From Gemmatimonadaceae bacterium (lineage in GTDB: Bacteria; Gemmatimonadota; Gemmatimonadetes; Gemmatimonadales; Gemmatimonadaceae), in NCBI GenBank assembly GCA_011525845.1, contig WYBP01000003.1, forward strand, positions 1 to 64,000: a DNA stretch of 64,000 nt, read 5' to 3'. This document shows positions 4,002 through 15,447 of this stretch, in pieces. Under the pieces are notes generated by a model. The model did no database searches. It was not told where the DNA came from and saw nothing but the letters and a program-made list of their open reading frames with translations. The translations under genes and the position numbers were made by a program. Within the stretch, counting starts at the first letter, position 1; the number at the start of each line of letters is the position of its first letter.

Positions 4002-4666
4002 CGCGCGCGGTGTCACGGGCACGCACGCTCCTGGCGGCGGCGTGCGCGCTGGTCGCGGTCACGATCACCACGCCCACGGCGCGCGCGCAGCGGCCCCTGT
4101 CGGTCTCGGGGGGCGCGGGGATCACCTCGGCCCGCCTCTCCCGCGAGGGTACGCTCGACCGCGCCTGGACGGGGGCGATCATGGGCGCGGGCGGCACCCT
4201 CCGGCTGAATCGTTTCCTCCTCGATGCCCAGTACGCACAGGGGACGCTGACGCCGGAGGCCGGCACGCTCGGTGACGGCGAGGACTTCGTGGATGGCGCC
4301 CTCCAGCTGCGCTTCCAGGTGCTCCCCTGGCTCACGGTCGGCGCCGGCCCGCACATCCGCGCCTTCATCACGCCCGCGGGCACCTCGCGCTGGACACGGT
4401 TCGAGGGGCGGGTCCGCGCCGAGGGCGAGCTGATCAACAGCATCGTGTTCGCGCACTTCGAGGGGTGGTTCGCCGCCGCCGTCGACGCGAACGTCCAGGG
4501 CGGCGGGAGTGGTGCGCAGGGAGGGGAGGCGGGCGTGCTGGTGCGGCTCCCGCGGACGCCGCTCGCGCTGCAACTCACCTATCTCGCCGACCGGGCGGAG
4601 TTCGCGAACGGCGCCTCCGAGTTCCTGGAGGGAGTCCGCTTCACCGTGCTCTTCGACCGGTACTGA
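3998..4666 (+). CDS. Outer-membrane beta-barrel protein
   Basis: A 222-residue protein starting at GTG 3998, which overlaps the preceding stop (GTGA). A signal peptide runs to about residue 30 (cleavage after ARA). The mature part is made of alternating hydrophobic/polar strands such as GGTLRLNRFLLDAQYAQG and LQLTYLADRAEF, and it ends in FDRY with a terminal aromatic residue, the usual C-terminal signal for outer-membrane assembly. No specific family recognised. As the last gene of the four-gene overlapping set it probably supplies the outer-membrane part of that cassette. Confidence 0.75.
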   Translation: MTRAVSRARTLLAAACALVAVTITTPTARAQRPLSVSGGAGITSARLSREGTLDRAWTGAIMGAGGTLRLNRFLLDAQYAQGTLTPEAGTLGDGEDFVDGALQLRFQVLPWLTVGAGPHIRAFITPAGTSRWTRFEGRVRAEGELINSIVFAHFEGWFAAAVDANVQGGGSGAQGGEAGVLVRLPRTPLALQLTYLADRAEFANGASEFLEGVRFTVLFDRY

Positions 4667-4727
4667 GGCCCGTCCTGATGCGCGGTGCCGACGGCGCGTC
4701 CCGGGCGGTCGTTCCCCCGAGTCCCTG

Positions 4728-5408
4728 ATGGCCCGCGTGAGCCGTCACCCGCTCAACGCGCGCCGCATCGCGGTGCTGGTCGTGGCCCTCCTGGTGGTGC
4801 TCGGCGTGCTCAGCTCGGAGCCGCTGCACCGCGCACTCCTCGACCTGCTCGCCGCCGCCGAGCAGGTGATGCGGGCATACCCGCGGCTCGGGATGGCCCT
4901 CTTCTTCGCGCTCGCGGGCTTCTCGGCCATGCTCTCGTTCTTCTCGAGTGCCGCCCTGGTGCCCGTGGGGGTGTTCGTCTGGGGACCGACGGTCACGATG
5001 CTCCTCCTCTGGTCGGGCGGCACGGTGGGCGGGATCCTGGGCTACTGGTTCGCCCGCACGCTGGGCCGGCGCGCGGTCAAGCGGATGTTCCCGGACGCCC
5101 CGCTGCGGAAGTACGAGACGTTCTTCTCTACGCGGGCGGACTGGCGCACGATCCTCCTCTTCCGGCTGGCGCTCCAGTCCGAGCTGCCGAGCTACGTCCT
5201 GGGGCTCGTGCGCTATCCGCTCCCGCGGTACCTCCCCATCATCCTGGTGGCGGAGGCGCTCTTCGTGCTGCTCGAGATCTATCTCGGCGCCGCCTTCCTG
5301 GAGCGGAGCGCCGCGACCTTCATCGGCGCGCTGGTGGTCGCCGCGGTGCTCATGGCATGGGCGTGGCGGCGGCTCCAGCGTGCGATGGCCGAGGCACCCG
5401 CCCCCTGA
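4728..5408 (+). CDS. DedA/VTT-domain (TVP38/TMEM64-like) membrane protein
   Basis: A 226-residue integral membrane protein. It has an N-terminal helix (about 12-30), a re-entrant region with FFSSAALVPVGVFVWGP, a GGTVGGILGYWFARTLGRR motif, then a FRLALQSELPSYVLGLVRYP segment and further helices. This matches the VTT family linked to lipid scrambling and undecaprenyl-phosphate recycling. In this family the residues after the re-entrant loop and the Arg-containing helix are functional; the canonical polar residues look present. It is 61 bases after the surface cassette and 63 bases before the ATP-grasp pair, so operon membership is unclear. Confidence 0.8.
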   Translation: MARVSRHPLNARRIAVLVVALLVVLGVLSSEPLHRALLDLLAAAEQVMRAYPRLGMALFFALAGFSAMLSFFSSAALVPVGVFVWGPTVTMLLLWSGGTVGGILGYWFARTLGRRAVKRMFPDAPLRKYETFFSTRADWRTILLFRLALQSELPSYVLGLVRYPLPRYLPIILVAEALFVLLEIYLGAAFLERSAATFIGALVVAAVLMAWAWRRLQRAMAEAPAP

Positions 5409-5471: not shown

Positions 5472-6623
5472 GTGACTGCGGCACCGATCGCGCTTCGCGC
5501 AGTCGCCGACGCACCGTTACTGGTGTGGGTGCTCGCGCCGCTGGTGGAGACGTCGGATCCGGACATCGCGTGGTACAGTGATCATGCTCAGGGGCGCGCC
5601 GAGTACGAGCGCGCCTTTGCCGCACTCGGGCATGCGTGGCGCTGGCAGGAGGTGACGCTCGCGGACCATCGCGAGGTGATCGCGCGGATCGTGCGCGAGT
5701 CCGCCGGGCACCGGCCGGTCGTCTTCAACCTCTGCGACGGCGACGAGACGAACGGCGCGCCGGGCGTGAGCGTGATCCGGTGCCTGAAGGAGCATGGCCT
5801 GCGTTTCACGGGATCCGACGAGCGCTTCTACGACGCGACCACGTCGAAGATCACGATGAAGGAGGCGTTCGACCGCAGCGGGGTGCCGACCGCGCCCTGG
5901 GCCACGCTGCGCCGTGACGGGAGCGATGCGGCGGACGCCTGCGCGCGACTCGGCGCGCCCCTGATCCTCAAGCCGGCCGTCTCGGCCGGCAGCATGGGGA
6001 TCACCACCAAGTCCGTGGTCCGCACGCCGCGCGCGCTGCGGGCACAGCTCCGGGTGCTCTCGAAGGGCTACCACGGGTGGGACCTCGCAGGCGGCGGCGT
6101 CTTCGTCGAGCGCTTCGTGACCGGCCCCGAGTTCACCACCTTCATCGTGGGGTCGTGTGAGTCGCGCTCCCGCGCCACCGTCTATCCTCCCGTGGAGCGT
6201 GCGTTCAACGCCGGACTCCCGCCCGAGGAACGCTTCCTCTCGTTCGAGCGGCTCTGGGGACTGTACGCGGAGGAGGAGCGCGTCACGGTGGGCGACGGCG
6301 AGCTCTGGCAGTACCGCAAGGTGCCGCGCGCGCTCGCCAAGCGGGTGAAGGAGATCAGCTGGGCGGCGTACCAGGCGGTGGGCGGCCGCGGCTACGGGCG
6401 CGTGGACCTGCGGCAGGATGCCGAGACCGGCGAGATCCTCGTGCTCGAGGTGAACGCCCAGTGCGGGCTCTCGGAGGACGAGGCGTACACCTCCATCGGG
6501 GCGATCCTGCGCTTCGCGGGCGCCCCGTTCAGCCAGGCCGTCGGCCAGATCATCGCGGCGTCGGTCGGCCGTGCGTCGTCGCGTGGCCGGCTCGCCCGCA
6601 TGCGCCGCGTCGTGACCACGTGA
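5472..6623 (+). CDS. ATP-grasp ligase, D-Ala-D-Ala-ligase-like (stand-alone partner)
   Basis: A 383-residue ATP-grasp enzyme. The N-terminal lobe holds NLCDG (86-90) and a GSDERFYDATTSK segment at about 114-126. ATP-binding residues include K167 (LILKPAV) and E213 (FVERFV). Mg ligands are D312, E326 and N328 (the last two in LEVNAQCG). The overall pattern is that of the D-Ala-D-Ala ligase branch, which joins an amino or carboxylate acceptor through an acylphosphate. The substrate is unlikely to be cell-wall D-Ala: a dedicated Ddl partner context (mur genes) is absent, and a second divergent copy lies immediately downstream with an overlapping start (GTGA). A role in a peptide or small amide product is inferred. 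Confidence 0.85.
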   Translation: MTAAPIALRAVADAPLLVWVLAPLVETSDPDIAWYSDHAQGRAEYERAFAALGHAWRWQEVTLADHREVIARIVRESAGHRPVVFNLCDGDETNGAPGVSVIRCLKEHGLRFTGSDERFYDATTSKITMKEAFDRSGVPTAPWATLRRDGSDAADACARLGAPLILKPAVSAGSMGITTKSVVRTPRALRAQLRVLSKGYHGWDLAGGGVFVERFVTGPEFTTFIVGSCESRSRATVYPPVERAFNAGLPPEERFLSFERLWGLYAEEERVTVGDGELWQYRKVPRALAKRVKEISWAAYQAVGGRGYGRVDLRQDAETGEILVLEVNAQCGLSEDEAYTSIGAILRFAGAPFSQAVGQIIAASVGRASSRGRLARMRRVVTT

Positions 6624-8101
6624 GGGTCTGCGTCCTCCAGCCGGACTACTCCCACTCCGGCGTCGACTACCGGCACTACGATCCCGCGCGCGACCTCACG
6701 GCCCTGCTCCCCGGGCACGAGGTGCACCACGAGGCGCTCGACAAGCGCACGACCTACCGGCAGTTGCGCGCGCTCGCGCTCCGGGAGTTCGACGTCTTCG
6801 TGAACCTCTGCGAGGGATACCTCGAGTGGGACGTGCCGTCGATCGACGTGATCCACGCACTCGACGCGCTCAACCTGCCATACACCGGCCCCTCGGCGCA
6901 GCTCTATGACCCGCCGAAGCCGCTGATGAAGTACGTCGCGCACACGGTCGGCATCCCGACGCCGCTGCACGCCCTGGTGGATGCGCATCACGTGCGGGTG
7001 GCGCACGAGGCCGAGGGAGCGGAACGCGCCGACGAGCTGCTCGCCCGCGCCACGCGGCACCTCGCGTTCCCCCTCTTCGTGAAGCCGTCGAAGGCCGGGG
7101 ACAGTCTCGGCGTCGACGAGCACGCGATCGTGCGGGACCTCCGTGCCCTGCGCGCCCAGGTGCTGGCGCTCGTGCCGGAGTACCGCGAGCTGCTCGTGGA
7201 GGAGTACGTTGACGGCCGCGAGTTCACGGTGCTGGTCGTCGGCGACCCGGCGGGGGCGGGGATGGGGAAGGCGCTCGCGCCGATCGAGTATGTCTTCCCG
7301 GCGGGCCACCGCTACAAGAGCTACGCGCTCAAGACGCGGGAACTGCACCCCGAGTCGAACATCGCGGTCGCGGACCCGGCGCTCGCAGAGGAGCTCCGCC
7401 GCACCGCCGAGCACCTCTTCCGGGGGTTCGCGGGGATCGGGTACGCGCGCATGGACTTCCGCATGGACGCGCGCGGGATGATCCACTTCCTCGAGGTGAA
7501 CTTCACCTGCTCGGTGTTCTATCCGAAGGGGTCGGAAGGGTCCGCGGACCACATCCTCGCACTCGACGGCCTGGGGCAGGCGGGGTTCCTCGAGCGGATC
7601 ATCGCCGAGGGGATCGCCCGGCATCGCCGTCGGCAGCGCCCGTTCGAGATCCGCGGGGACTCGATCGCGGGGTACGGCATCCGCGCCATCCGGCCCCTCG
7701 CCGAGGGGGAGGTGGTCTTCCGCGGCGAGGAGCGCAGCCACCGGCTCGTCACGCGCCGGCACGTGGAGGGGACCTGGAGCGCGGCCGACCGGGAACTGTT
7801 CGCGCAGTACGCCTATCCGATCAGCGACGAGGTCTTCGCGCTCTGGGACAGCGACCCGATGGCGTGGGCCCCGCAGAACCACTCGTGTGAGGCGAACACC
7901 ACGTACTCCGGACTGAACGTGGTGGCGAGGCGTGCGATCGCGGTGGGCGAGGAGCTCACCCTGGACTACGCCGAGCTGGTCGGGGAGGACGCCGCGCCCT
8001 TCGAGTGCCGCTGCGGCGCACCCTCCTGCCGGGGGCTGGTCCGGGGCACCCGGGGGAACTCCGTGACCGCCCGGGAGCGTCAGGCGGTGATGCCGCGCTA
8101 A
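6620..8101 (+). CDS. ATP-grasp ligase fused to a SET-domain methyltransferase
   Basis: A 493-residue fusion starting at GTG 6620, inside the stop of the first ligase. Residues 1-333 form a second D-Ala-D-Ala-ligase-like ATP-grasp unit, with K155 (FVKPSKAGDS), the acidic VEEYVDG segment near 195 and metal ligands D279, E292 and N294. Residues about 340-473 form a complete SET domain: GYG (351-353), the knot motif NHSCEANT (420-427), GEELTLDY (443-450) and a post-SET CxC...C zinc site (463, 465, 470). Stand-alone bacterial SET proteins methylate lysines. Joining SET to a ligase suggests methylation of the ligation substrate or product, or of a carrier peptide. Both active sites look intact. The fusion is read in one frame with no sign of assembly error. 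Confidence 0.88.
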   Translation: MRVCVLQPDYSHSGVDYRHYDPARDLTALLPGHEVHHEALDKRTTYRQLRALALREFDVFVNLCEGYLEWDVPSIDVIHALDALNLPYTGPSAQLYDPPKPLMKYVAHTVGIPTPLHALVDAHHVRVAHEAEGAERADELLARATRHLAFPLFVKPSKAGDSLGVDEHAIVRDLRALRAQVLALVPEYRELLVEEYVDGREFTVLVVGDPAGAGMGKALAPIEYVFPAGHRYKSYALKTRELHPESNIAVADPALAEELRRTAEHLFRGFAGIGYARMDFRMDARGMIHFLEVNFTCSVFYPKGSEGSADHILALDGLGQAGFLERIIAEGIARHRRRQRPFEIRGDSIAGYGIRAIRPLAEGEVVFRGEERSHRLVTRRHVEGTWSAADRELFAQYAYPISDEVFALWDSDPMAWAPQNHSCEANTTYSGLNVVARRAIAVGEELTLDYAELVGEDAAPFECRCGAPSCRGLVRGTRGNSVTARERQAVMPR

Positions 8102-9300: not shown

Positions 9301-12300
9301 TCAGCGCCCCACGCCGAGGTCGTTCCAGTGCAGGATGCTGTTGAAGCCGAGGAAGAAGGTGCCGTGCGTCTGCCACCGCCAGAACGGACGGATACCGAAC
9401 ATCACGACATGCCCCGCCCCCACCGGAGCGTCCACCACCTGGGCGCGGCTGGCGAGACCCTCGCCGCCGGCGAGCGTGCCCGAGAGCAGGATCTCCGCCG
9501 GGTTGGAGGGGAAGCTGAGGACGACGCGCGGGCGGTCCGCGAGCGCGCCGCCGGCACCGGGCCCACCGGCTCCGCCAGGGCCACCGCCCGGACCCGCACC
9601 TTCGCCCGCGGCCTCACCGGCCGCAGCCGCCGGCGCGGCACCCGCGGCACCCGCGGCGCCGCGACCGCCGGCCGCCGCTCCTCGACCACCGGCGGGTGCT
9701 CCGGCCGCAGCGGCAGCCGGACGACCGCCCGCTGCGGCGGCCCCTGTCGCGGCAGCGGTTCCCTCGACCGCGTTCCAGTCCCAGGCCGAGATCGTGAGCT
9801 TGTTCGCCATCGGCGTCGTCTGCTGTGCCGTGCTCGACCCACCGCCGCCGAAGCCGCCGAACCCGCCGCCCGCGATGCCTCCCGCGTTGATCACGGGCGC
9901 CTGGTTGAAGTAGACCGGCACCTGCCCCTGGAACCCGTACGTGATCGGGCTCCGCTTGTCGGCCACGATGCCGCGCATCACGGAGCCGCGCGCGAAGAGG
10001 CCGGCCGGCTCCTCGATGGTGATCCCGGTCGTGAGCTTGTACTCCGGGAAGATCGTCGACGTGGAGCCCTCGACGATGAGCGTCCCGCCGGCCTGCACGA
10101 ACTTGTAGAGCTCCTGCAGCCCCTCGTAGCCCATGCCACCGCGGATGTCATCCGTCTCGTCGATCCCGCCGAGGTTCGGCGTCTCCGCCGACTTCTTGTA
10201 CGGCACCGGGGTCTTCCCCGTCATCGCGATCCCCTGCACCTGCGAGGTCGCCGAGCCGCCCACGTGCGGGAAGATCAGCACGTCGTACTTCGCGCGCAGG
10301 TTCCCCTCGCGGAGCTTCTGGTCCGAGAAGTAGGTGTACGGCACGCCATAGGTGTCGAACGCTGCACGCACCCACCCCTCGTCCTGCGTGCGCTGCCAGC
10401 TGTGGATGTAGCCGATGCGCGGCACGTCGAGGTCGTGCTGCTTGACCGTCGGTGCGGTCGCCATCGCGACACCGGTGAGGCCGAGCTCGGTGAGCACCGG
10501 ACCGACGACGGCGGCGTTGGCATTCGGGATGATGAACGCGCCGGCGCGGAACTTCCGCCCCGCCGCCTCGAAATCCTCCTGCGCGGCGGACATCTGCACG
10601 TCCTTCAGCCGGAACCGCATCGTGACGAGGTTGTTGTCGGTGGTGTGGTCAACCACCACCACGTTCCCGCTGCCCACGATCCCGCCCGGCGCCTTCGTCA
10701 GGCCGGTCATCTTCGTCATCTTCTGGCCGAAGACGCTCGTGTCCGTCACCGGGGAGATGACGACGTTGCGCATCAGCTGGAAGGTCCACCCCGTGTCGTC
10801 ATAGGGACGCGGGTTGGACGGGGAGAAGTTCTGGATGGAGAAGTACATGTCCGCGAGCGTGCGGTAGGGCTGGTCGCCGCGCACGATGTAGTCCCCCTTC
10901 TCCACGCGCATGCTCCCCACCGTGAAGCTCGCGTCCGCCACGTGGATCTCGAGGCCCTGGCGGTAGAGCTCGTTCACCGCATCCACCGCGTCCGCCTTCC
11001 GGCGCTGGCCGGCGGGGATCACCCAGGCGTACGTCGGGCCCGCGCGGCCCTTCTCGATGGACCGCTTGTTCTTGAGCCAGTAGTTCTCGAGGTAGAGCTT
11101 GCGGTTCTTGGCGAAATGGTCGAGCGAGTAGAGCACGCCCGACTGGCCGATGTTCACCGAGTTGCGCGGGCCCCACTTGATCGAGGGGAGCGGCGGGTTC
11201 GGGCGGAACCACTCCTTGCTCGTCGTGGTCGCGCCGACGCGGAGGTTGGCGTTGTTGTCGGGGCCGTAGCTCTGCACCTCGTAGAAGCGCCCGATCGCGT
11301 TGTGCGCGTGGGCGGCGAAGAAGAGGTAGTTCGGGGTCCAGCCATCATAGAAGCCGTAGGTCCAGACACCGGGCACGCCGCGCTTGGTCAGCTCCATCAC
11401 GTCGGCCTGCGCCATCGTCCACCACTCGGTCACCGTGATCGGGTCGAGCCACTCGTTGTACGGGCCCGTGCCCGTGGACGAGTAGAGGTACGACACCGAC
11501 TCGTGCAGGTCGTGCATCACCTGCGGCGTCCAGTGCAGGAAGGTCTTGTTGACGCTCCGGGTCAGGGTGAGGAACTGCCCCATCCCGTCGCGGTTGTTGT
11601 CGTGCGCGACGTACTTGCCCCAGTACATCAGCGGGAGGCGGGCCTCGCCGGTGGGGCGCTTCTTGTTCCAGTAGTAGGTGTCCACCTGCTTCTCGCGCCC
11701 GTCCACCTCGAGCACGGGCGTGATGAAGGTGATGACATTCTTGCGGATGTTGTCGTAGAAGGGCGTCTCGGTGACGGCCAGCCGGTAGGCCAGCTCCATC
11801 AGCATCTCCGGTCCGCCGGTCTCCGTGGAATGGAGGCCGCTGGTGAGCCAGTAGATCGGCTTCGCGGTGTTGAGCAGCTCCTGCGCCTTCGCCTCCGACG
11901 TCCGGCGCGGATCGGTGAGCTCGTTGAGCATCCCGCGATAGCGGTCGAGGTCCCGGATCGTCTCGGCGTCCGCGACCGCGAGCACGTACATGTCGCGCCC
12001 CTCCTCGGAGGTCCCGATCTTCCAGACCTTCACGCGGTCGGAGGCGGCGTCGAGCGCCTCGTAGTAGCGGTGGATGTCCTTCGCGTAGGTGAGCTCCCCC
12101 GGCGTGCCGACGATGCGGCCATGGAACTTGAGGGGGGAGGGTACCGTCTCGGACGCCGGCAGGTGGTCGACGAGATCCGTCGTGATGCGCGCGTCCTGGA
12201 GGTGTTCCTTGATCTTCGCGGTGTACTCCTTGTCGATCGCCTGGGTGCCCTGCGCACGGGCCGTGGTCGCGACGATCGCGAGGCCGGCGACGAGGGCGGC

Positions 12301-12339
12301 GCCAAGGCCGAGGGTCCTGCTGGCACGAACGAATGACAT
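9301..12339 (-). CDS. Secreted M14-family zinc carboxypeptidase-like protein
   Basis: A 1012-residue protein whose start at 12339 gives a clean signal peptide (about 1-29, cleavage after ARA). The frame is open well upstream, but that part overlaps the neighbouring gene. The M14 domain shows HSTE (H170, E173) and a second zinc histidine in MHDLHES (276-280), plus HDNNRDGMG. A long C-terminal half resembles a class-I glutamine-amidotransferase-like fold (DVLIFPHVGG, GGTLIVEGS). It contains an Ala/Gly-rich low-complexity insert of about 100 residues before the conserved end. Substrate is probably peptides outside the cell. It lies 83 bases downstream of penicillin acylase on the same strand and likely shares its transcript. 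Confidence 0.88.
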   Translation of the reverse strand: MSFVRASRTLGLGAALVAGLAIVATTARAQGTQAIDKEYTAKIKEHLQDARITTDLVDHLPASETVPSPLKFHGRIVGTPGELTYAKDIHRYYEALDAASDRVKVWKIGTSEEGRDMYVLAVADAETIRDLDRYRGMLNELTDPRRTSEAKAQELLNTAKPIYWLTSGLHSTETGGPEMLMELAYRLAVTETPFYDNIRKNVITFITPVLEVDGREKQVDTYYWNKKRPTGEARLPLMYWGKYVAHDNNRDGMGQFLTLTRSVNKTFLHWTPQVMHDLHESVSYLYSSTGTGPYNEWLDPITVTEWWTMAQADVMELTKRGVPGVWTYGFYDGWTPNYLFFAAHAHNAIGRFYEVQSYGPDNNANLRVGATTTSKEWFRPNPPLPSIKWGPRNSVNIGQSGVLYSLDHFAKNRKLYLENYWLKNKRSIEKGRAGPTYAWVIPAGQRRKADAVDAVNELYRQGLEIHVADASFTVGSMRVEKGDYIVRGDQPYRTLADMYFSIQNFSPSNPRPYDDTGWTFQLMRNVVISPVTDTSVFGQKMTKMTGLTKAPGGIVGSGNVVVVDHTTDNNLVTMRFRLKDVQMSAAQEDFEAAGRKFRAGAFIIPNANAAVVGPVLTELGLTGVAMATAPTVKQHDLDVPRIGYIHSWQRTQDEGWVRAAFDTYGVPYTYFSDQKLREGNLRAKYDVLIFPHVGGSATSQVQGIAMTGKTPVPYKKSAETPNLGGIDETDDIRGGMGYEGLQELYKFVQAGGTLIVEGSTSTIFPEYKLTTGITIEEPAGLFARGSVMRGIVADKRSPITYGFQGQVPVYFNQAPVINAGGIAGGGFGGFGGGGSSTAQQTTPMANKLTISAWDWNAVEGTAAATGAAAAGGRPAAAAAGAPAGGRGAAAGGRGAAGAAGAAPAAAAGEAAGEGAGPGGGPGGAGGPGAGGALADRPRVVLSFPSNPAEILLSGTLAGGEGLASRAQVVDAPVGAGHVVMFGIRPFWRWQTHGTFFLGFNSILHWNDLGVGR

Positions 12340-12422: not shown

Positions 12423-14972
12423 TCACCGGGGGACTCCCGTGCGCTCGGCCCCTCCGCGAACGGCCGGGCCCGGGGTGAGCCGCAGGCGCGATTCGGTGGC
12501 GGATTCCACGGCGGAGCGGGAATAGAAGACCGGGAAGTACCGGTCGTTCGCCCAGGCGGTGAAGAGATCCCGGTAGTGCGGGCTCGCCGGATCGCCACTC
12601 TGGCCCGGCGTGTTGGTCCCCACCGCGGAATCCCAGTCGGCGAGGTCCACCACGATCCGGAACGACGCGCCGCTCGTCTGGTTGTCGCCGTTCCCCGTGG
12701 CGTTGAGCGTCACCCCGTAACCCCCGCGCGGGGCCGGCCCCACGTCGATCTGGCGCCGTACCTCTGCATTCACGGCACCGCTCAGCGGGTGCCGTATCAG
12801 GGCGTGCTTGTACCCGGGCTGGCCATAGCGCCAGGCCGCGGGGTCCGCGCCGAAGCGCTCCGTGAGCGCGGCGACCGAGGCGGCGAGGGTGCGGACGAGC
12901 ATCGAGTCGCGCGCCGCCACGGGATCCGCGCCGAACTCCCCCGGCGGCGCGATGAGCCACCCCACGGTGCGGCGGAGCGCGACCGAGCGCACGAGCGCGC
13001 GTTCCGCGGGCCTCACCATCCTCTCGTACGTCGCCGCCTTGAGCCGCGACTCCCATTCCACGTAGAGGCCCGCCTCCGCCGACTCGCGCGCGAGCACGCG
13101 ATCCCAGGCGAGCAGCCGGCGGCGGAGGGAGTCCAAGCGCGCGTCGGCGACACGCAGGTCGCGGAGCAGCGGCACGAGCTGCCGCGCGGGGATGGAGAGC
13201 TCGTCCGTCTGGAGGCGCATCATGTCGGCCACCGAGTGCTGCCGGCCGCCGCCCAGGACCTCGTTGGCCCGCGCCCAGCGATACGGGTCGGCCCACGAGA
13301 AGCCGATCGCATCCATGTGGGGATATCCCGGCGGGATCAGCTCGTTGTTCGCGGTCGCGAAGAAGCCTGCGTCCGGGTTCACGACGTGCGGCTTCTCGAG
13401 GATGTCGAGATAGCCATCCCACTCGAAGCGTCCATCGCCCGGCACGGGCACGAGCCCACTGAAGTTCCGGCGACGTGGTGCGATCCCCACCGACTGCCAA
13501 CCGATCGTGCCGGTGCGGTCGGCCCAGATCATGTTCTCGCCCGGGATGTGCGAGTAGCGATTCGCCTCGCGGAACTCCGCCCAGGTGCGCGCCTGGTCCA
13601 TCCGCAGGCTGCTCAGGTACGGTGCGCCGCCGATCTCCATCCAAGCGGCGCGCACCGCGAAGGCGCGGTTCCGCGCGCGGTTCTCCGAGACCACGGGCCC
13701 GTGGCGCGTGTAGCGGTGGCGGACGATGGTGTCCGCGCGTCCCTTCACGCGGATCGTGTCCACGATGCTGCGCATCCGTTCCCACTCGCCGCGGAACCGA
13801 TAGCGATCCGGATCGGCGGGGTCGGTCTCGTAGACGAGCAGGTCCTCGCCGTCGGTGGAGAAGATCGTGAGGCCCCACGCGCCGTGCTCGTTGTGCCCGA
13901 TGCTGATCCCCGGGAGCACCGGCTCCCCACCACCGATCACGTTCCAGCCCGGCCCCACGAGGTGCACCCAGTAGCGCAGCGAGGGCGCGGAGTGCGCGCG
14001 GTGCGGGTCGTTCGCCATGATCGGGGAGCGGCTCTCGGTGCGCGCGCCCGAGACCACCCAGTTGTTGCTGCCGATGTCGAACGCATCGTGCGTCCAGCTC
14101 TCTGAGGTCGGGGACTCGCGGACGGGGAGCGCCTCCGGATCCTGCGACGGACGTGCGGGTGCGCTCGCGCGCGCCGACGGGATCACATCCTCCGGCATGA
14201 AGCGCAGCGGCGCGCGGAAGGCGTCGTACGTCGCGAGGATGTTGGGTGCGAGCAGCGCCGCGTCGATCCCCTCGGCGAGCGTGAGGTCGGGATCACCCGG
14301 GCCGTACGAGCCGAGGAACTTCACGCGCGCCGCGCCGTGTGCGGCGACGGCGCGGCCCGTGCTGAGCTCCTCGCCGATGTTCCCGAGCAGCCCCTGGTGG
14401 CGGGAGATCACGTCCGCGGTGGTCCAGTGCTGCGGTCGCGTGCCGAGGAGCCGGAACTCGAGGGGGAGGGACGCGGGGTCGGCGTTCGCCTGGTCGATGT
14501 ACGCATTCACGCCGGCGACGAAGGCGCCGATGATCGCACCACCGCGCGGATGGTAGTGGTCGAGCTCGCGCGCGAGGTCGCCGCGGAACTTGAAGAGCCT
14601 CGCCCCGATGTCACGCGCGAGCTCGCGCGGCCCGAGCCACTCGGCCACCGTTCCCGTCGCCTGCCGGCGCCAGACCTCGAACTGGAAGAGCCGGTCGCGT
14701 GCGGCGGCCCATCCCTGCGCGAAGAAGAGGTCGTGCTCGGTGCTCGCGTAGATGTGGTTGATGCCCCAGCGGTCGCGGAGGATCTCCACGGGCTGTTCGA
14801 GGCCCCGGATCGCGAGCCGCGTGCTGTCCTGCGCGCCGGCCGCGGCTGGGGCGATGGCGGATGCCGCGACCACGAGGGCGAGCGCCGCGACGAGCGTCGT
14901 GGCCAGCCGTACCGTGCGTGGCGCGCTAGGAGTCGTGAACGTCCGGCACGAGAATCCAGGGAAGATGGGCAT
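12423..14972 (-). CDS. Penicillin acylase family amidohydrolase (Ntn hydrolase)
   Basis: An 849-residue secreted precursor, start at 14972 chosen because a Tat/Sec-like signal (basic stretch, hydrophobic run about 25-45, AGA cleavage) follows. The family is self-cleaving: the nucleophile Ser302 begins GSNNWVVSG, giving alpha and beta chains. The beta chain carries NDPHRAHSAPS, HNEHGAWGLTI and an RHGPV motif typical of the fold. Members hydrolyse N-acyl groups of beta-lactams, acyl-homoserine lactones or acylated amino acids, so quorum quenching is possible. The actual substrate cannot be told from sequence. It is followed by the M14 peptidase gene, suggesting extracellular amide/peptide scavenging. 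Confidence 0.9.
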   Translation of the reverse strand: MPIFPGFSCRTFTTPSAPRTVRLATTLVAALALVVAASAIAPAAAGAQDSTRLAIRGLEQPVEILRDRWGINHIYASTEHDLFFAQGWAAARDRLFQFEVWRRQATGTVAEWLGPRELARDIGARLFKFRGDLARELDHYHPRGGAIIGAFVAGVNAYIDQANADPASLPLEFRLLGTRPQHWTTADVISRHQGLLGNIGEELSTGRAVAAHGAARVKFLGSYGPGDPDLTLAEGIDAALLAPNILATYDAFRAPLRFMPEDVIPSARASAPARPSQDPEALPVRESPTSESWTHDAFDIGSNNWVVSGARTESRSPIMANDPHRAHSAPSLRYWVHLVGPGWNVIGGGEPVLPGISIGHNEHGAWGLTIFSTDGEDLLVYETDPADPDRYRFRGEWERMRSIVDTIRVKGRADTIVRHRYTRHGPVVSENRARNRAFAVRAAWMEIGGAPYLSSLRMDQARTWAEFREANRYSHIPGENMIWADRTGTIGWQSVGIAPRRRNFSGLVPVPGDGRFEWDGYLDILEKPHVVNPDAGFFATANNELIPPGYPHMDAIGFSWADPYRWARANEVLGGGRQHSVADMMRLQTDELSIPARQLVPLLRDLRVADARLDSLRRRLLAWDRVLARESAEAGLYVEWESRLKAATYERMVRPAERALVRSVALRRTVGWLIAPPGEFGADPVAARDSMLVRTLAASVAALTERFGADPAAWRYGQPGYKHALIRHPLSGAVNAEVRRQIDVGPAPRGGYGVTLNATGNGDNQTSGASFRIVVDLADWDSAVGTNTPGQSGDPASPHYRDLFTAWANDRYFPVFYSRSAVESATESRLRLTPGPAVRGGAERTGVPR

Positions 14973-15081
14973 CAGCGTCGGGTGGGGGAGGGGCTGCGAA
15001 CATGCGTCGCGCGTGCGCCGATGGCAACGCGCCGATGCCGGCGCGCCGATGGCACCGCGCTCCGTGATGCATATTCCGTCC

Positions 15082-15447
15082 ATGCCCCCGGACCCGCTCG
15101 CCCGGCTGCGCAAGATCTGCCTCGCCCTCCCCCAGGCGAAGGAGGTGCCCGCGTGGGGCACCTCCACCTTCCGCTGCGGGAAGATCTTCGCGATGTACGC
15201 CCATCCGGACGACCATCACGGCGGCGGTCGCCACGGCGTCTGGCTCAAGGCGGCGCCCGGGAACCAGCGCCTGATGGTCGCCGACCGCCCGGACCGGTTC
15301 TTCGTGCCGCCCTACGTGGGCCCCAGCGGGTGGATCGGCGTCTGGATCGACAAGCGACCCTCCTGGAAGGAGGTGGCGATGCTGGTCGAGGAGTCGTGGC
15401 GGCTCGTGGCGCCGAAGAAGGTGCTCAAGGCGTACGACGCTGAATGA
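15082..15447 (+). CDS. MmcQ/YjbR-family protein
   Basis: About 121 residues. It starts with MPPDPLARLRKICLALPQAKE, has the family's WGxxTFR-type segment (AWGTSTFRCGKIFAMY), a VWLKAAPGNQRLMVADRPDRFFVPPYVG stretch and the ending WRLVAPKKVLKAY. The fold is a CyaY-like DNA-binding-type domain, but the cell role of the family is not established. ATG 15082 is preferred; an in-frame ATG at 15067 would add five residues, and neither has a Shine-Dalgarno sequence. It is divergent from penicillin acylase and closed by a strong terminator. Confidence 0.85.
   Translation: MPPDPLARLRKICLALPQAKEVPAWGTSTFRCGKIFAMYAHPDDHHGGGRHGVWLKAAPGNQRLMVADRPDRFFVPPYVGPSGWIGVWIDKRPSWKEVAMLVEESWRLVAPKKVLKAYDAE

Follow-up and report, generated by a model that had tools for sequence, protein, structure and literature searches.

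A gene in a Gemmatimonadaceae contig encodes an ATP-grasp ligase and a SET methyltransferase in a single chain, and on balance we favour the view that its locus forms the core of a so far undescribed pathway, independent of NRPS, whose product would be a methylated amino-acid conjugate or short peptide. The window, ie the whole stretch of 64,000 nucleotides that was analysed, carries this fusion directly behind a second ATP-grasp gene. The features are as follows.

5472..6623, forward strand: AG1, partner ATP-grasp ligase of 383 amino acids with R-x-D-x-R and E-V-N-x-x-C signatures (Pfam, profile survey)
6620..6623, forward strand: GTGA overlap between the stop of AG1 (TGA) and the GTG start of the fusion (sequence)
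6620..8101, forward strand: fusion of an ATP-grasp ligase with SET and post-SET, 493 amino acids, GTG start (Pfam, homologue alignment, AlphaFold)
6620..7636, forward strand: ATP-grasp domain, residues 1-339 (Pfam, conservation, Ddl fold match)
7670..7969, forward strand: SET domain, residues 351-450, with N420, H421, C423, E445 and Y450 (Pfam, conservation, fold)
8006..8029, forward strand: post-SET cysteines C463, C465 and C470, predicted zinc site (sequence, conservation)

The fusion protein, its conservation and its spread

A single open ORF encodes the fusion, running on the forward strand from a GTG at 6620 as far as 8101. That GTG was accepted as the start because the homologues begin at the same residue, with M/V-K-I-C-V-L-Q-P. 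The ATP-grasp part takes up roughly residues 1-339 and the SET and post-SET part roughly 340-480. Pfam matched Dala_Dala_lig_C to residues 131-294 (8.8e-18) and SET to residues 351-450 (3.6e-7, 31.0 bits against a cut-off of 22.4); scores of 31.0 and 34.7 bits exceeded the gathering score of PF00856 (22.4). The SET part contains the N-H-x-C motif (in NHSCEANT, 420-427), the catalytic tyrosine (in GEELTLDY, 443-450) and the post-SET cysteine cluster. The presence of both enzymes in one protein, as originally predicted, is thus confirmed by the open reading frame, by Pfam and by more than 100 homologous loci.

The residues that had been named as the two active sites (K155, D279, E292 and N294, the two SET motifs and the three post-SET cysteines) were all in place and nearly invariant in 107 aligned fused homologues, in which the catalytic residues of the two domains were 94-100% conserved. 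In the ATP-grasp domain D279 and N294 were present in all 107 sequences and K155 and E292 in 106, with K104, E194, E201 and R277 likewise conserved; the cysteine of the E-V-N-x-x-C signature, C297 in the fusion, was kept in 106 of the 107. H421 and C423 of the SET domain were invariant, as were C463 and C465; Y450 was found in 101 (the others have Phe) and C470 in 105.

AlphaFold2, run with 59 homologues, predicted one compact protein (pLDDT 94, pTM 0.90), and the SET part modelled alone reached a pLDDT of 90.5. Residues 1-339 of the predicted model matched D-Ala-D-Ala ligases with Z scores of 27-31, the best being 30.8, and the SET part matched human ASH1L (Z 11.5) and the bacterial enzyme BurB (Z 11.2) about equally. 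The model supports the assignment of the folds, and it bears on fold rather than on function. The description of the SET domain as eukaryote-like was too strong, the nearest solved sequence being bacterial BurB and the fold comparison tying BurB with ASH1L.

More than 100 loci in other genomes carry the same fusion, among them isolate records of Lacibacter cauensis, L. luteus and Terrimonas ginsenosidimutans, and an assembly error or chance joining could be ruled out. When 298 Gemmatimonadota genomes were searched with the window protein, full-length fusions were 58-74% identical in close relatives and 36-41% identical in other families; in the genus of the window a fusion was present in 11 of the 12 members sampled. 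Relatives were encoded at 249 places in the GTDB contig set, from which 80 loci were kept. For the distribution of the fusion we relied on three phyla, Gemmatimonadota, Bacteroidota and Acidobacteriota. The occurrence in Cyanobacteriota is a single Brasilonema genome, with no other found among 146 Cyanobacteria sampled, and the records from 'Deltaproteobacteria' and Planctomycetota are MAGs. Two further records, 'Streptomyces griseus' (L073, 35% G+C) and 'Kuenenia' (L088, 65.5% G+C), have a base composition at odds with their titles and group with other phyla in the tree; they are probably mislabelled MAGs. No plasmid record covered 80% of the query.

The junction between the domains was 48 residues long in 54 of 59 sequences and 47 in the other five, and the identities of the ATP-grasp and SET domains to the window protein co-varied (r = 0.83). 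Judged from these matching identities and the near-fixed junction, the fusion is ancient and evolves as a single unit. Two deep clades appear in a maximum-likelihood tree.

Partner genes at the fusion loci

The original prediction did not include AG1, a second ATP-grasp of the same broad family as the ligase of the fusion, which overlaps the fusion by 4 bp. The GTGA overlap makes translational coupling of the two genes probable. The proposed mapping of neighbours was carried out by clustering the ORFs at 81 loci and then searching with profiles of the key families, and three kinds of partner were found to recur beside the fusion: AG1, a small SET protein some 164 amino acids long, and ABC-type genes. 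Among the 79 loci with enough flanking sequence, AG1 lay on the same strand at 66, the small SET gene adjoined the fusion at 43 and an ABC-type gene at 26. After thinning at 80% identity AG1 was present at 35 of 37 loci and the small SET gene at 23. In phyla other than that of the window the two ligases are accompanied by the small SET, and in a subset also by ABC-transporter proteins. The gap between AG1 and the fusion had a median of 3 bp, and was 50 bp or less in 84 of the 97 cases measured.

The order of the genes varied. Two of the layouts were small SET-AG1-fusion, with or without a following ABC gene, and AG1-fusion-ABC-small SET. Three loci (L132, L133 and L135) have no AG1 and read small SET-fusion-ABC exporter-second small SET, and the Brasilonema locus reads fusion-small SET-FemAB/GNAT-AG1. 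The components are spread over separate genes at L123 (4062-10335), where a GNAT gene, three ATP-grasps, a small SET gene and a complete ABC exporter are found, the counterpart of the fusion having no SET domain. At the other extreme, L170 of Acidobacteriota (5683-7605, reverse strand) unites all three domains, ATP-grasp, SET and small SET, in a single polypeptide of 640 amino acids; by eye, genes resembling pqqB, pqqC and pqqE adjoin it on the opposite strand. The partners are not obligatory. The fusion is solitary in eight further Gemmatimonadota genomes, and neither a small SET gene nor an exporter gene adjoins the fusion in the window.

The commonest ABC-type partner was a membrane-only protein of PF13748 (ABC_membrane_3), without an ATPase domain, found in Chitinophagaceae and some Gemmatimonadaceae; at L054 (9566-10456) it is about 296 amino acids long, and it is kept beside the operon in many Bacteroidota. 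The exporters of L132, L133 and L135 were assigned by similarity; Pfam confirmed their relatives at L104 and L123. L104 also has an alanine-dehydrogenase/PNT-like gene (9435-10436, PF05222/PF01262) between the fusion and the small SET gene, with short gaps, which is a possible additional tailoring step. In the window a VTT/DedA-type membrane protein is encoded directly upstream of the ligase pair (4509-5408, forward strand); the survey found this gene at only four loci, all in Gemmatimonadota, and it was set aside as incidental. Downstream, on the other strand, are an M14 carboxypeptidase (9301-12333) and an acylase of the penicillin-amidase family (12423-15167). In one Bacteroidota clade (L081 and relatives) the fusion locus likewise has penicillin amidases at its flanks, possibly by chance.

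A profile of the small SET family gave BurB 92.5 bits and the highest-scoring histone methyltransferase 51.8, and the small SET and BurB share the motifs Y-x-S-T-E and G-A-K-E-L. Several side chains that contact SAM in BurB differ in the small SET, R133 and H138 among them, and we therefore do not claim methionine as its substrate. The fusion and the small SET were each found in eight of 198 Bacteroidota genomes, the identical eight, and neither in the other 190, the eight co-occurrences not being independent in that one is the chosen centre, some are close kin and several feed the small-SET profile. The small SET accompanies the fusion in both deep clades of the tree, which suggests that the association is ancestral. 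A strict pairing was not seen within Gemmatimonas: a more distant small-SET homologue lies away from the fusion in 10 of 17 genomes of that genus, its neighbours having no biosynthetic look, and one genome of the genus has this homologue and no fusion. Neither a close homologue nor the distant Gemmatimonas version was found in the genome of the window. At L148-L154 this distant small-SET or BurB-like gene of Gemmatimonas lies near 5896-7106, in several cases beside conserved genes that include, by eye, those for an FtsY-type GTPase and a RecG-like helicase.

A proposed pathway and its alternatives

Because both active sites of the fusion are conserved together across phyla, coupled amide ligation and methylation is the natural reading of the protein. 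As is usual for the family, each ATP-grasp enzyme would spend ATP to activate a carboxylate as its acyl phosphate and then join this to an amine in an amide bond; the chemistry would be that of D-Ala-D-Ala ligase with other substrates. The SET domain of the fusion would methylate, with SAM as donor, a nitrogen or sulfur in a side chain of the substrate or product, so that ligation and methylation would be held on one rigid protein. A further unit would be added by AG1; a second methylation may be performed by the BurB-like small SET at loci that have it, and the ABC-type partners, where they occur, may export the product. We infer that both domains of the fusion are active, that the substrate is a small molecule and that the ABC partners serve export.

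The points for this pathway are the conservation of the sites, the coupling to AG1, the co-occurrence with the small SET and its likeness to BurB, the triple fusion of L170, the exporters and the FemAB/GNAT gene. Against it are the absence of a small SET and an exporter beside the fusion in the window, the solitary fusions, and the presence of ABC genes at only a third of the loci. The two-step ligation and methylation foreseen in the original prediction stands in outline, both sites being conserved across phyla, without the parts concerning lysine and a protein tag. It had been reasoned there that SET enzymes act on lysine side chains. This is not general, since BurB methylates free methionine on sulfur, and a SET domain therefore need not act on a protein lysine. 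Similarly, an amino-acid conjugate and a peptide tag had both been offered as products; two or three ligases per locus and the ABC-transporter partners favour the conjugate over a tag on a protein.

We regard it as unlikely that the fusion modifies a protein, with an amino acid or peptide ligated on by the ATP-grasp domain and a lysine, either in that tag or in the protein itself, methylated by the SET domain. The majority of SET enzymes that have been characterised methylate lysines in proteins, the SET fold here fits ASH1L as well as it does BurB, and solitary fusions with neither partners nor exporter would suit such a role. However, what recurs at the loci is two or three ligases together with genes for ABC transporters and for a BurB-like SET, and no candidate target gene. 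The ATP-grasp, moreover, belongs to the D-Ala-D-Ala-ligase type, in which the enzymes characterised link free amino acids.

The D-Ala-D-Ala-ligase fold would also suit an enzyme of the cell envelope; the ligases would make an amino-acid or dipeptide unit that, once methylated, would become part of peptidoglycan, of a lipid or of a surface polymer. The FemAB_like gene of Brasilonema, the VTT protein directly upstream in the window and the membrane-only ABC protein at many loci point in this direction. Yet FemAB was seen at one locus and the VTT gene at four in the survey, and no envelope-synthesis enzyme was recognised among the identified recurrent neighbours; we give this reading slightly less credit than modification of a protein.

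Tailoring of a ribosomal precursor peptide by the ATP-grasp and SET domains, with export by the ABC transporter, is improbable. ATP-grasp enzymes do make graspetides, and some loci have exporters, but graspetide ligases are of the RimK/MdnC type, unlike the D-Ala-D-Ala-ligase type found here. A comparison of short ORFs around the operons gave no precursor; each conserved one was confined to a single clade or genus and lay within a neighbouring gene or antisense to it. It is more improbable still that one domain is non-catalytic and regulatory, eg with the SET domain sensing SAM, a possibility for human TTLL12, which joins SET-like and TTL-like domains and is inactive in both (PMC3520985), since both sites of the fusion, unlike those of TTLL12, are conserved over phyla.

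We return to the proposed pathway to a methylated conjugate or short peptide. SET methyltransferases have almost always been treated as enzymes of chromatin or of protein lysines, BurB being the described natural-product exception. If the proposal is true, SET chemistry would be a regular part of bacterial small-molecule biosynthesis, given the spread of the fusion over Gemmatimonadota, Bacteroidota and Acidobacteriota and its dedicated BurB-like partner in Bacteroidota. A system of three or four genes, present in named isolates, would then offer a simple genetic handle for finding the product.

Comparison with known systems

The C-terminal motif of D-Ala-D-Ala ligases, EVNTxPGxT, is absent from the fusion, which has EVNFTCSVFY in its place. 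The fusion shares the whole ATP-grasp fold of the Ddl/VanA family (TIGR01205, PF07478; Z about 30 over residues 1-339), with the ATP-binding lysine and the metal-binding Asp, Glu and Asn (K104, K155, D279, E292 and N294). Both ligases of the window fell short of the TIGR01205 cut-off of 245.65 bits, scoring 68.4 and 64.9, and the genome has a separate true D-Ala-D-Ala ligase (303.5 bits); a cell-wall identity for the two was therefore rejected.

BurB is a SET-type enzyme that methylates free methionine on sulfur in a natural-product (DMSP) pathway (PMC7496086, PMC12542666). Like the fusion it combines SET and post-SET in a bacterial biosynthetic context (PDB 9l4t, 9l4v), and among SET proteins of known structure it is the nearest in sequence to the fusion as well as to the small SET. 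Unlike the fusion, it is a standalone protein of 172 amino acids, encoded beside NRPS-PKS genes and with no ATP-grasp. The profile of the fusion's SET family scored BurB and MLL1 nearly alike (55.8 and 53.5 bits), and with the tie in fold between BurB and ASH1L a particular kinship of that SET to BurB is not apparent.

The loci resemble the NRPS-independent ATP-grasp peptide operons (PMC2922099) in combining one or more ligases with modifying enzymes; the marker enzymes of those operons were not among the neighbours identified at the fusion loci, and the term 'SET domain' is absent from the paper. In the open-access literature, the 2009 amidoligase survey of Iyer and colleagues excepted, where an earlier mention is possible, no description of an ATP-grasp-SET fusion was found, nor any described pathway or substrate for this architecture, in line with the original prediction. 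The relevant literature on ATP-grasp or Ddl proteins with SET came down to TTLL12 and BurB. The further idea that this is the first bifunctional ATP-grasp-SET enzyme with both sites functional, and the signature of a new and widespread natural-product pathway to the methylated conjugate or short peptide that would carry bacterial SET chemistry well beyond BurB, is put forward tentatively, at slightly under an even chance. TTLL12, a eukaryotic protein, also has SET-like and ATP-grasp-type ligase domains in one chain, with the SET-like domain N-terminal and a ligase of the TTL type; the fusion has the ATP-grasp first, of the Ddl type, followed by SET. The critical residues of both domains have been lost from TTLL12, whereas in the fusion both sites are intact.
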